A DNA stretch of 36,202 nucleotides from an uncultured Eubacteriales bacterium (GTDB lineage Bacteria; Bacillota; Clostridia; Oscillospirales; Butyricicoccaceae), in assembly GCA_949740695.1 (NCBI GenBank), contig CATJIY010000042.1:1-36202 (forward strand). The letters are read 5' to 3'. The translations under genes were made by a program, and so were the position numbers. The notes beneath the pieces are model-generated. The model was not told the DNA's origin, searched no databases, and saw only the letters and a program-made list of their open reading frames with translations. How positions within the stretch are numbered: position 1 is the first letter of the stretch; each line of letters opens with the position of its first letter. This document shows positions 7,791 to 12,377 of the stretch, piece by piece.

Positions 7791-7906
7791 CCAGAGACGG
7801 CTTGTCCAAATCATGCCGCAGGCCGGCCGCCGGCAATCCTGATACAGCATCAAACCGAAGGAACTGCCCAACGGAATGATAAATTTTGAAAAAGCGAGGA
7901 ACCATC

Positions 7907-9064
7907 ATGAAACATCCAAACAAAATGCTGGTCTTTTTGCTGGCGGCAGCGCTGCTTCTTAGCCTAGCCGCCTGCGGAGGCCAGCCCAACGCTAACCCGC
8001 AGGGACCCTCCAACGGGGAAGACGGAAATCAACAAACGGCAGAACGCACCGTCACCGACGACCAGGGAACCCAAGTCACCGTTCCTGGAGAGATCAATCG
8101 AGTGGTGATTATCTCCACCGTACCGCTGGCTTCGGTCTATACCATGATGACCGGGGAAGCGGATACCATTGTGGGACTAACCCCGGCCTCAAAAAACGCA
8201 GCGCAAAACTCTTTTCTCTCCAAGCTGGGGGATTTTTCTCAGGTAGAATCCTCTTTCGCCCAAGGGGAGACCGTAAATGTGGAGGAAGTCGCTGGACTAA
8301 AGCCCGACGTAGTGCTTTATAATACCGCCAATGCGGCAGATACCGAAGCCGCCGGCCAATTAACCGCTATGGGCATCCCATGCGTAGGTTTCAGCACTGG
8401 GGTTAGCAAAACCGGGAATACCATTGAAACCTTTACCCGCTGGGCTGAACTGATGGGGCAAATGCTAGGAAAAGAAAACCAAGCCCAAGCCCTGGCGGAT
8501 TATGGCCGCCAGACAATAGAAATGGTACAGGAAAAGGTGGCCGGGCTGACCCCTTCCCAACAGAAAACCGCCCTGATCCTGAATAACTACACCGGCACCA
8601 CCATTTTAGCAGCGGGCAATACTTTTGGGAGTTATTGGCTTACCACCTGCGGGGCGGGAAACGTAGCCGCCTCCATTGATAAACCCGCCGCTCCAGTAGA
8701 TCTGGAACAGATTTACGCCTGGAACCCCGACGTGCTGCTGCTAAACAGTTTTTCTGCTTATACCCCAGAAGATATTTTGAACAACACCGCCGGCGAGGGC
8801 CAGGATTGGAGCGGATTAAAAGCAGTTCAGAACAAACAGGTTTATAAGTTCCCCCTGGGAGTTTACTACTGGTTTGCCCCCTGCTCAGATTCTCCTTTGG
8901 CTTTGCAATGGGTTGCAAAGACCTTGTATCCCGAATTGTTTGCCGATTTGGATCTGGATCAGGAAATCCGGGACTATTATCAGAAATACTATGGTATTAC
9001 TTTGACCGACAACGACCTGAAAACACTGTACGCCCCTCCGGCGGAGTCGGCCATGGCCAGCTAA
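7907..9064 (+). CDS. ABC importer substrate-binding lipoprotein, FecB/BtuF type
   Basis: This 385-residue lipoprotein captures a metal complex (siderophore, haem, cobalamin or similar) for the adjacent FecCD-type permease. A lipoprotein signal peptide ends at LAAC (Cys23). The mature part is a two-lobe helical-backbone binding protein with the family's TVTDDQGTQVTVPGEINRVV start, LKPDVVLYN and LEQIYAWNPDVLLLN. The ligand cannot be told from sequence. The ORF track starts at a TTG at 7886; the ATG at 7907 with GAGGA upstream gives a proper signal peptide. It lies 116 bp after the TM1266 gene, a gap holding a GCCGG/CCGGC hairpin but no clear promoter. Confidence 0.92.
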   Translation: MKHPNKMLVFLLAAALLLSLAACGGQPNANPQGPSNGEDGNQQTAERTVTDDQGTQVTVPGEINRVVIISTVPLASVYTMMTGEADTIVGLTPASKNAAQNSFLSKLGDFSQVESSFAQGETVNVEEVAGLKPDVVLYNTANAADTEAAGQLTAMGIPCVGFSTGVSKTGNTIETFTRWAELMGQMLGKENQAQALADYGRQTIEMVQEKVAGLTPSQQKTALILNNYTGTTILAAGNTFGSYWLTTCGAGNVAASIDKPAAPVDLEQIYAWNPDVLLLNSFSAYTPEDILNNTAGEGQDWSGLKAVQNKQVYKFPLGVYYWFAPCSDSPLALQWVAKTLYPELFADLDLDQEIRDYYQKYYGITLTDNDLKTLYAPPAESAMAS

Positions 9065-9071
9065 CCAGGCT

Positions 9072-10136
9072 ATGCTACAAATAAGAGAGCGCATCCACCA
9101 TTTGGGGCAGGGCGGCGTAAACCGCCCTGCCTTTGTTGGCAGCAAACTGCTGAAGGGACTGGCACTGGTTCTTTTGCCCCTGGCTGTGGGACTGATCTGC
9201 CTGTGTATCGGACGATATCCGGTAGCTCCAGGACAAGTTTTAAAGATTCTTTTCGCTCATTTCACTAGCGGCGAGGGCGGTGACTCGCTGGCAAACAGTA
9301 TGATCTGGAACATGCGCTTGCCCAGAATTCTGCTGGCCCTGGCGATAGGCGCCGGCCTCTCGGGGGCCGGCGTGGCTTTTCAAAGCCTGTTCCGCAATCC
9401 GCTAGCTACGCCGGATACCCTAGGCGTGGCTTCGGGAGCCAGTTTTGGCGCGGCGCTGGCCCTGCTGCTGGGCTGGAATATGGCAGGCGTGCAGGGTCTG
9501 GCCTTGGTTTGCGGTTTGGGCGCGGCGGCGCTAACCTTTTTCCTAAGCCGGGGAAAAAGCCGCTCCATGGCAGGGGTGGTGCTGGCAGGCGTAGCGCTGT
9601 CCTCCCTGTTTTCCGCCTTAGTATCTCTGGTAAAATATGTGGCCGATGTGGACTCTCAGCTGCCGGCCATTACTTATTGGCTTATGGGCAGTCTCAGCGG
9701 CGTAAGCTGGCGCCGGCTGTGGTTTGGTTTGCCTCTGCTAGCGGCGGGAGGACTGGTTTTGCATCTACTGCGGTGGAGACTCAACCTGCTTACACTCGCT
9801 GAAGACGAGGCTCGCGCCTGCGGATGCCGGCTAGGCCTGCTGCGCGGTGCAACGGCAATATGCGCCTCGGCCATCACCGCTTCGGCGGTATCGCTTTGCG
9901 GACAAGTGGGCTGGGTAGGCCTTTTGGCTCCCCATATCTGCCGAATGGCAGTGGGTTCGGACAACGCCCGGCTAATGCCGGCAGCGCTTTCAGGCGGCGC
10001 AATATTTTTAGTTATCGTCGATACCGCTGCCAGAAGCCTGACTGCCTCTGAACTGCCCATCTCCATCCTGACGGCAGTAATCGGCGCGCCTTGCCTGCTG
10101 GCCCTGCTGGCAAAGACTGGGGGGTGGAAACTTTGA
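9072..10136 (+). CDS. ABC importer permease, FecCD/BtuC type
   Basis: This 354-residue integral membrane protein has about nine or ten hydrophobic segments. It carries the FecCD hallmarks MRLPRILLALAIGAGLSGAG, QSLFRNPLATPDTLG and the C-terminal GLLAPHICR. It forms the transmembrane channel of the importer together with the ATPase. The only possible start in frame is ATG 9072, seven bases after the binding-protein stop and without a strong ribosome site, so translation probably depends on coupling. The first 25 residues (to about VNRPAFVG) are encoded across a strong hairpin and are longer than usual for the family. Confidence 0.95.
   Translation: MLQIRERIHHLGQGGVNRPAFVGSKLLKGLALVLLPLAVGLICLCIGRYPVAPGQVLKILFAHFTSGEGGDSLANSMIWNMRLPRILLALAIGAGLSGAGVAFQSLFRNPLATPDTLGVASGASFGAALALLLGWNMAGVQGLALVCGLGAAALTFFLSRGKSRSMAGVVLAGVALSSLFSALVSLVKYVADVDSQLPAITYWLMGSLSGVSWRRLWFGLPLLAAGGLVLHLLRWRLNLLTLAEDEARACGCRLGLLRGATAICASAITASAVSLCGQVGWVGLLAPHICRMAVGSDNARLMPAALSGGAIFLVIVDTAARSLTASELPISILTAVIGAPCLLALLAKTGGWKL
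9106..9131 (+). promoter_or_regulatory. Terminator-like hairpin in the 5' coding part of the permease
   Basis: GGCAGGGCGG (9106-9115) and CCGCCCTGCC (9122-9131) are perfectly complementary over 10 bp around a CGTAAA loop, followed by TTTGTTGG. It lies just inside the permease ORF. Such a stem between binding protein and permease would protect the upstream message or partly stop transcription, giving more binding protein than permease. The T-run is short, so full termination is unlikely. Confidence 0.65.
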
Positions 10137-10936
10137 TTTTTTCCGTAGAGCAAGGCTCCTTTCGCTATCCCGGCAAAAAAGATTTATTGAAAGATCTTTG
10201 CTTTTCGGTAGAAAGCGGCCAAATATTGGCGATTCTAGGTCCAAACGGCGTGGGAAAAACCACTCTGCTCCGGTGTATGCTGGGATTATTGCCTTGGAAC
10301 AGCGGAAGAAGCCTCTTGAACGGCTTGGATATCCGCCGGCTGGAAGGGCGGAGCCTGTGGCAGCGAGCGGCTTATGTGCCCCAGTCGGGGGAGAGCGCCG
10401 CCGCACGCACCGTATTGGAGCTGGTCCTTTTGGGCCGAGCCAGCCGGCTGGGAGTCTTTTCTCAACCAGGAGAAACTGATTGGAACGCAGCCTGGCAGGC
10501 GCTGGAACAGCTGGGCTTGTCCCAACTGGCACGTCAGCCTCTGAACAAGCTTTCCGGCGGACAACGGCGAATGGCGGCCATTGCCCGTGCATTGGCAGGA
10601 GAGCCCGAGTTGCTGGTACTGGACGAACCAGAGGCCAATCTGGATTTGAAAAACCAGCTATTGGTGCTGGAAACCCTGAAAAAACTGGCAGATACAGGCA
10701 TGGGGATCGTGTTAAACACGCACGATCCTTCCCATGCCTTGGGATACGCACAAAAAGCCCTGCTGTTGGAACCTGGCGGCAGCTATACGGTAGGAAAAAC
10801 CGCTGAAATCATCACCAGCCAACGGCTGTCCGCAGCTTTTGAAGTGCGCTGCGCAATGGGATGGATGGACACCGTTTATGGGTCGGTGAATCAGATCGCG
10901 TTTTTTCAGAAGGACCCCATTGATTGCAAAGACTGA
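10133..10936 (+). CDS. ABC importer ATPase, FecE/BtuD type
   Basis: This ATP-binding subunit of about 267 residues drives the FecCD-type importer. All ABC motifs are present: Walker A GPNGVGKTT, Q-loop PQSGES, signature LSGGQRR, Walker B LLVLDEPEANLD and switch histidine THDPSHA. The ORF track starts at 10091 inside the permease gene. I prefer the TTG at 10133, which overlaps the permease stop (TTGA) and follows GGGGGGTGG; a GTG at 10124 is possible. It is the third gene of the binding protein-permease-ATPase operon. The C-terminal 40 residues after the switch are typical of the FepC group. Confidence 0.93.
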   Translation: MIFSVEQGSFRYPGKKDLLKDLCFSVESGQILAILGPNGVGKTTLLRCMLGLLPWNSGRSLLNGLDIRRLEGRSLWQRAAYVPQSGESAAARTVLELVLLGRASRLGVFSQPGETDWNAAWQALEQLGLSQLARQPLNKLSGGQRRMAAIARALAGEPELLVLDEPEANLDLKNQLLVLETLKKLADTGMGIVLNTHDPSHALGYAQKALLLEPGGSYTVGKTAEIITSQRLSAAFEVRCAMGWMDTVYGSVNQIAFFQKDPIDCKD

Positions 10937-11000
10937 TTCCTATTCCCCATATATCCGATTTCGTTCCGGCTGTCCAGGGGAACAGAAAGGTAGGAAACTT

Positions 11001-12377
11001 ATGGACAATTTTACGCTGAAACTGCAAGCCAGCGATAAGCGCCCCCTCTATGAGCAGCTCTATCGCCACATCATTACCGAACTAGAAGCCGGACGCCTGC
11101 GTCCAGGAGAAAAACTTCCCTCCAAACGGGCGGTATGCGTCCATTTAAAGATCAGCCAAAGCACCGTAGAAACTGCTTATGGCATGCTATCCGCCGAGGG
11201 TTATATCTACGCCCGCCCAAAAAGCGGCTATTACGTCAGCAATATCCCCGTTCGCCCAGCTCGGTCTCATCCGCTTCCTCCTGCGCCAGCCAAATCGGAA
11301 ACCCCGCTTCCCCGTTTTGATTTTTCTACCGGCGCGGTAGACACCGGCGTTTTCCCCTACGCCTCATGGGCCAGACTCAGCAGGGAGGCCATCTCTAACC
11401 CTCAGTTGCTTCAGCGGGGAGAAGCCCAGGGAGACCTGGGCTTTCGTCAAGCGCTAGCCGCCTTTTTGCGGGAATACCGGGGCGTACGATGCCAGGCCGA
11501 TCAAATCGTCGTAGGAGCCGGCTTAGAGTACCTGTTGAACGTATTGGCTCAGGTTTTGCCTTGGGAAAGTGTTTACGCCTTGGAAGACCCAGGCTACCGG
11601 GCGGCATGGCAGGTGTTGCGGAGCCATGGGCGGCAGGTGCGAATGATCCCTCTGGATAACAGCGGCCTGCGAGCCGATAAGCTGCGGGAAAGTGGGGCCA
11701 ACGTTGCCTTTGTGACTCCCTCTCACCAGTTTCCCCTGGGTATAACCATGCCGGCGGGCCGCCGCGCCCAACTGCTGGCCTGGAGCGAAGAAGTGGAAAA
11801 CCGATTTTTGGTAGAGGATGACTACGACAGTGAATTTCGCTATGCCACCCGGCCCATTCCCGCCATGCAGGGATTGGACGGCGGGGATAAAGTCATCTAT
11901 ATCGGCACCTTTTCCCGATCCATCGCTCCCTCCATTCGCGCTGCCTACCTGGTGTTTCCCCGGCGTCTGCTGGCGGCCTATCAGGAACGAATGGGTTTTG
12001 CCGCCTCTACTCTGTCCCGGTTTGAGCAGCAAACCCTGCGGGCCTTTCTGGAGCGAGGGCTTTATAGCCGTCACCTGCGGCGGTCGGCCAATCTTTATCG
12101 GAAAAAACAGCAGCTTTTGCTGGAAGAACTTTCTCAGCTACCCGGCGCAGAAATCGCTGGCGCACAAGCGGGGCTACACTTTTTGCTCACGCTCCCAGGA
12201 AAAGACGAAGCTTGGCTAGTGGCCCGAGCGGCGGCGGCAGGCGCGCCGGTTCGGGGCCTCAGTGAATATTGCCGGGACTGCATTCCCCCAAAAAGCACGG
12301 TGGTTTTAGGTTTTGCCGGACTGAAGTTGGAGGAGATTCCTCAGGCCGCAGCTGCCTTGCGGGATGCGTTTTCCTAA
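11001..12377 (+). CDS. MocR-type GntR/aminotransferase regulator lacking the PLP lysine
   Basis: This 458-residue protein fuses a GntR winged helix (about 1-80; LPSKRAVCVHLKISQSTVE) to a class-I aminotransferase-like domain (about 100-455). In MocR proteins such as GabR and PdxR, that domain binds PLP as a sensor. EDPGYRAAW, TPSHQFPLG and VEDDYDSEFRY are conserved. The Schiff-base lysine in the usual GTFSK(S/T) motif is replaced by arginine (GTFSRSIAPSIR, Arg306), although the phosphate-binding arginine remains. The ATG at 11001 with AAAGGTAGG upstream is chosen over the track start at 10920, which overlaps the ATPase. It lies 64 bp after the importer operon in the same direction and may regulate it. 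Confidence 0.93.
   Translation: MDNFTLKLQASDKRPLYEQLYRHIITELEAGRLRPGEKLPSKRAVCVHLKISQSTVETAYGMLSAEGYIYARPKSGYYVSNIPVRPARSHPLPPAPAKSETPLPRFDFSTGAVDTGVFPYASWARLSREAISNPQLLQRGEAQGDLGFRQALAAFLREYRGVRCQADQIVVGAGLEYLLNVLAQVLPWESVYALEDPGYRAAWQVLRSHGRQVRMIPLDNSGLRADKLRESGANVAFVTPSHQFPLGITMPAGRRAQLLAWSEEVENRFLVEDDYDSEFRYATRPIPAMQGLDGGDKVIYIGTFSRSIAPSIRAAYLVFPRRLLAAYQERMGFAASTLSRFEQQTLRAFLERGLYSRHLRRSANLYRKKQQLLLEELSQLPGAEIAGAQAGLHFLLTLPGKDEAWLVARAAAAGAPVRGLSEYCRDCIPPKSTVVLGFAGLKLEEIPQAAAALRDAFS

Follow-up and report, generated by a model that had tools for sequence, protein, structure and literature searches.

The window analyzed here, a stretch of DNA of 36,202 nucleotides, carries a gene for a MocR/PdxR-type regulator preceded by a three-gene importer cluster (Table 1). 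The regulator has the MocR architecture, in which an N-terminal GntR winged-helix-turn-helix domain is fused to a fold-type-I aminotransferase-like domain, and reaches 503 bits against the NCBIfam PdxR model, above the cut-off of 320. Its AF2 model (pLDDT 87.9) finds GabR and Bacillus clausii PdxR as best full-length matches in the PDB. The effector domain shares 38% identity with that of B. clausii PdxR (TM(target) 0.93), and over ~360 residues the model fits the effector domains of PdxR and GabR with an rmsd of 1.5-2.0 Å.

Table 1. Features at the regulator locus and at the predicted target (positions in the window, except for the last row, which refers to contig C84).
Feature	Position	Strand	Basis or remark
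Importer: binding protein (7886-9064), FecCD permease (9072-10136), ABC ATPase (10091-10936)	7886..10936	+	Pfam; judged not to be a functional part
Spacer 5' of the regulator gene	10937..11000	+	PdxR operator of more distant Arg-type loci absent; PWM -18.8 bits
MocR/PdxR-type regulator gene	11001..12377	+	ATG start, 458 aa, intact frame, GTFSRSIAPSIR; translation, Pfam, NCBIfam
GntR winged-helix DNA-binding domain	11046..11237	+	aa 16-79; PF00392, 53.4 bits
Aminotransferase-like (fold-type-I) effector domain	11322..12221	+	aa 108-407; PF00155 Aminotran_1_2, 58.3 bits
Asp273-Asp274-Tyr275 codons	11817..11825	+	Asp273 = pyridine-nitrogen aspartate (GabR Asp279), Tyr275 = GabR Tyr281; alignment and PMC6677901
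Arg306 codon CGA	11916..11918	+	Column of GabR Lys312/PdxR lysine; Arg in 29/29 Arg rows of the main clade
Arg313 codon, PLP-phosphate arginine	11937..11939	+	29/29 in Arg-type rows
PF07155 ECF S-component gene, predicted target	C84:13708-14262	-	Operator directly upstream

PLP-sensing MocR regulators are taken to be defined by the lysine that forms the aldimine with PLP. The regulator has arginine in its place, as the first-pass annotation of this DNA had read from the CGA codon, and the reading holds: in our alignments the solved relatives (PdxR entry 7pq9 and GabR) have lysine in the position-306 column. That annotation had also described the remaining PLP-site motifs, including the phosphate-binding arginine, as kept. 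This proves true well beyond the single protein, as Tyr199, His242, Asp273, Asp274, Tyr275, Glu278, Thr303, Ser305 and Arg313 are invariant in 29/29 Arg-type rows. The pocket therefore retains the pyridine-nitrogen aspartate, a stacking tyrosine and the phosphate-binding arginine, with both Tyr199 and Tyr275 among the fixed residues. We also considered whether another pocket lysine could have taken over the Schiff base, a finding that the annotation would have counted against itself. This was rejected, since no substitute pocket lysine is conserved across the Arg-type rows: lysine occurs in more than half of them only at positions 38, 42, 74, 128 and 369, the first three of which lie in the DNA-binding domain. 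Finally, three positions (139, 315 and 356) and two more in the DNA-binding region (25 and 62) shift along with Arg306, and this co-variation favors an adapted subfamily.

Two sources supplied the homologues, a set of 99 related genomes and a species-level genome collection. The annotation had conceded that lysine in all close orthologues would undo its claim; instead, arginine is present in all of the closest distinct homologues, to as low as ~50% identity. In a tree of 89 proteins calculated with column 306 left out, one clade of 32 (SH-aLRT 96) unites 29 Arg rows with 3 Lys rows (L040, L054 and L062); it takes in every congener possessing this regulator gene, while two further Arg rows (L095 and L113) and one Gln row fall outside. 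The AU test (p = 0.084) does not reject a single strict origin of the arginine, nor do the data establish one. Among 31 sequences the arginine is encoded by CGC (18), CGG (5), CGA (3), CGT (3) and AGA (2), and this diversity of codons indicates that the residue was held through synonymous change. By this comparison, Arg306 is a lineage trait, neither a private mutation nor an error, and the loss of the lysine is natural, old and maintained in the Arg clade. The lysine has been lost elsewhere in the family as well, to Arg, His or Gln. A survey of MocR proteins reported the aldimine lysine as conserved in all clusters (PMC6677901), and no description of the Arg-type clade was found among the freely accessible papers searched. 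As a separate observation, a Lachnospiraceae MocR gene (L072:4458-5900) whose relatives are Lys-type has a CAG codon, for Gln, at the aldimine position.

The regulator/S-component intergenic regions contain a three-box operator, CTGACC ... CTGG ... GGTCAG, with a rigid span of 46 bp; it lies between divergent MocR and PF07155 genes and is common to Arg- and Lys-type loci. In nearly all the sites listed, a TATAAT-like -10 element starts 4 to 5 bp past the 52-bp scored site, the distance being read in the direction of the transporter gene or of pdxST. The operator thus covers the -35 region, from which we infer the arrangement expected of an activator. The window contains no such operator (best PWM score 2.6 bits), nor was any riboswitch found in it, a tRNA being the only element returned. 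A whole-genome search with an IUPAC pattern allowing up to 3 mismatches gave a single perfect match in this genome (G000), at C84:14351 (49.4 bits), on a contig other than that of the window. A distance of 85 bp separates the end of the site from the ATG of an ECF S-component gene of the PF07155 family, and in the congeners the operator is likewise upstream of a PF07155 S-component gene. The same holds for Arg-type genomes of other genera, the count being 13 of the 15 genomes whose regulator gene has no well-matched pair of this kind next to it; the two exceptions, G003 and G039, are incomplete assemblies, and G008 was counted once its partial gene had been confirmed as Arg-type. To guard against circularity, a second matrix was derived solely from 20 sites at Lys-type, pdxS-adjacent regulators, which had been located with the first matrix. 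It assigns 44.7 bits to the G000 site and 32-50 bits to the congener sites, against a maximum of 17.4 in shuffled sequence (2.1 Mb).

The combination of direct and inverted boxes that characterizes PdxR operators at genes of B6 synthesis or salvage is found here at the ECF S-component gene and not at the regulator's own promoter. Because each congener has exactly one PdxR-family gene, no candidate other than the Arg-type protein is seen for reading the operator, with the caveat that the host genome is ~65% complete and a further MocR gene could be missing from it. We thus predict that the Arg-type protein binds the three-box operator, and comparison across genomes supports both operator and target well. 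In one congener (G007; L154, L167) no Arg-type gene was found, and a Lys-type PdxR-like gene adjoins its own ECF S-component gene and operator, so that a Lys-type PdxR apparently replaces the Arg-type protein within the genus.

PF07155 is the family of the vitamin B6 transporters PdxU and PdxU2/HmpT (PMC9997740). It also includes transporters of other vitamins, and against NCBIfam the S-components obtain FolT-like scores only, all below cut-off. Vitamin B6 is nonetheless the predicted substrate of the target S-component. A PF07155 gene is beside the regulator, almost always divergently, at 15 of 31 Arg-type loci and at 6 Lys-type loci, while pdxS, mostly with pdxT, is beside the regulator at ~20 Lys-type loci and at 0 Arg-type loci. 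Loss of the lysine and S-component adjacency are associated when phylogeny is disregarded (Fisher p = 5e-7) and show no association in independent pairs; as the pairs point to a clade effect, we do not claim a causal tie between the two. PdxS was found neither in the 9 genomes of the genus nor in 18 Arg-type genomes, and the Lys-type hosts of the same family mostly lack it too. Judged from the PdxS route, as distinct from the DXP-dependent one of pdxJ, Arg-type hosts probably depend on imported B6. Furthermore, the operator occurs upstream of a pyridoxamine kinase gene (NF005491, above cut-off) beside one Arg-type and one His-type regulator. These two regulators belong to a C-terminally short PdxR-like branch, and their position ties the site to B6.

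Taken by architecture, sequence and operator, the regulator is a PdxR-type MocR protein that lacks the residue defining the PLP-aldimine MocR proteins. Our preferred reading, which we regard as probable, is that of a PdxR-like switch for B6 uptake operating without a Schiff base through non-covalent binding of a phosphorylated B6 vitamer. The Arg-type regulator would bind the three-box operator, from which the -10 element of the PdxU-family S-component gene is only a few bases away, and would switch this gene on, rather than repress it, when B6 is scarce. The pocket (Asp273, Tyr275, Tyr199, Arg313 and others) would sense a phosphorylated vitamer, i.e., PLP or possibly PMP or PNP, whose reversible, non-covalent binding may then turn activation off. 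This scheme follows what is known of PdxR, for which PLP is an anti-activator: the PLP-free protein activates and PLP shuts it off, and B. clausii PdxR favors the direct boxes in its apo form and the inverted ones in its holo form (PMC5320631). As both kinds of boxes, the pocket and the target are kept, the same switch with reversible vitamer binding is the most economical explanation. The first-pass annotation had left three options for the regulator, namely non-covalent PLP binding, sensing of another ligand, or no ligand at all; the first of these remains, in our judgment, the best.

The main competing explanation is that Arg306 mimics a locked state and the pocket serves for folding and dimerization only, the regulator being a ligand-blind, constitutive activator of B6 uptake in auxotrophs with a permanent need for the vitamin. 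Indeed, the K302H variant of EnuR does not incorporate PLP and is a constitutive repressor (PMC8739950), so that the arginine could equally mean a regulator blind to its ligand. The repeated loss of the lysine (to R, H and Q) agrees with this, as does the absence of a detectable pdxS in Arg-type hosts, which would make constant uptake tolerable. However, since Lys-type hosts are mostly devoid of PdxS too, auxotrophy alone fails to explain why the lysine was lost. Moreover, the operator retains the direct and inverted boxes that are the apo and holo sites of B. clausii PdxR (PMC5320631), and the 29/29 conservation of Asp273, Tyr275, Tyr199, His242 and Arg313 goes beyond the needs of a scaffold. 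In evolutionary terms, the pyridine-nitrogen and phosphate contacts are invariant despite the lost covalent anchor, which favors vitamer binding over ligand blindness; we consider the latter unlikely, though worth taking seriously. Less probable still is a pocket retuned to another phosphorylated or cationic metabolite, with an S-component carrying something other than B6, e.g., another vitamin. The further differences between Arg- and Lys-type proteins (for instance at positions 139, 175, 315 and 356) could be read this way, as could the functional heterogeneity of PF07155 and the weak matches of the S-components to FolT-family models. Against it, the residues contacting the pyridine nitrogen and the phosphate are kept, and the regulon is tied to B6 by the occurrence of the same operator at pdxST (Lys-type) and pyridoxamine kinase (Arg- and His-type) loci.

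The immediate surroundings of the gene suggest a different partner. The annotation had drawn attention to the FecCD-type importer next to the regulator and had found this context, in place of PLP, GABA or taurine genes, unusual for a MocR protein. Pfam confirms the importer, which lies on the same strand with a gap of 64 bp and could be co-transcribed with the regulator; in two congeners, moreover, the regulator follows cobT and cobS. One could thus imagine that the importer is the target and that the regulator has moved to the control of corrinoid or siderophore uptake. We consider this very improbable and rejected the importer as the partner: none of 8 congeners has an orthologue of its permease (E<=1e-40), the regulator's neighbors vary within the genus and the family, and the window is without an operator, the sole perfect one of the genome lying upstream of the ECF S-component gene. 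Of the two marks by which the annotation would have recognized a real subfamily, arginine fixed across a clade and the same importer alongside, the first is borne out by the 29 rows and the second is contradicted by the congeners. The importer is a misleading clue, and the seemingly odd context gives way to a likely target, the PdxU-family S-component gene, on another contig, which would make the protein a B6 regulator in the usual manner of PdxR. That the arginine might be a private mutation, a sequencing error or the mark of a decaying gene can practically be dismissed, even though the assembly that contains the window is incomplete, as all congeners with the gene and the 29 clade rows share it, the frames being intact and the synonymous codons several.

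As to the neighbors themselves, the importer permease was found within the genus only in this species, and its best model scores are to BtuC, below cut-off. In two congeners (L119:5424-9053 and L121) cobT, cobS and a histidine-phosphatase gene precede the regulator gene, and in a third (L117) the histidine-phosphatase gene alone does so. A cobalamin link based on these genes was rejected, because they are absent from the window and from other genera. Since 8 congeners do not share the permease and the cob genes are present in two, the immediate neighbors say little.

The system can be compared with several known ones. The Arg-type regulator resembles B. clausii PdxR, a MocR-type activator of pdxST (PDB 7pq9/7zla/7zn5/7zpa/7zth), in domain order, fold and link to B6, and its predicted operator is of the type found at pdxST-linked relatives; it differs by having arginine for the Schiff-base lysine and, as predicted target, an uptake gene (the ECF S-component) instead of pdxST. 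With Streptococcus pyogenes PdxR, which induces pdxKU when B6 is absent (PMC11619246), it would share the control of B6 salvage or uptake, although here the genes for regulator and transporter are not linked. Bacillus subtilis GabR (PDB 4n0b) has the same fold and its pocket residues Tyr205, Phe250, Tyr281 and Arg319 have equivalents in our protein, but GabR relies on the aldimine chemistry of Lys312 with GABA, its GABA-contacting Arg207 corresponds to Ala201 here, and no gab genes are nearby. EnuR K302H is, like the Arg-type protein, a MocR regulator without the aldimine lysine; it is an engineered, locked repressor, while the Arg-type change is natural, old and maintained. We would accordingly file the Arg-type protein as a variant that appears to work like PdxR and is new in its aldimine position.

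Vitamin B6 transporters of gut Clostridia are poorly known, and the operator offers a transferable rule for locating B6 uptake genes in these bacteria. A natural clade devoid of the lysine that shares the operator and has a probable B6 gene as its target also allows one to ask whether MocR signaling needs the covalent bond or only the occupancy of the pocket. For this question there is a natural pair with the same kind of locus, i.e., the cultured Arg-type Pseudoflavonifractor sp. An85 (L041) and the Lys-type Gemmiger formicilis An812 (L054). In a wider and more speculative perspective, which we put forward tentatively and hold to be somewhat less than an even bet, such proteins may form a class of natural B6 sensors dispensing with covalent aldehyde chemistry, which would read total B6 phosphate (PLP, PMP and PNP) instead of just PLP, through the pyridine-nitrogen and phosphate contacts only, and would have arisen more than once (Arg, His and Gln) in bacteria dependent on B6 import.

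Two other groups of relatives were encountered. In a Lys-type MocR clade of the same family (L136, L137, L139, L143 and relatives) the regulator gene follows a Mem_trans (PF03547) transporter gene and lacks the three-box operator. The C-terminally short PdxR-like branch, more distant but from the same order, comprises proteins of ~360-385 aa whose small domain is missing its final 80 residues (L218:2579-3670, L220:1743-2975, L224:2086-3234, L226:2021-3106 and L230:3340-4473). In this branch Arg is found at the aldimine position in three proteins and His in two, Lys also occurring, and the three-box operator is present near a gene for pyridoxamine kinase or for an ECF S-component.
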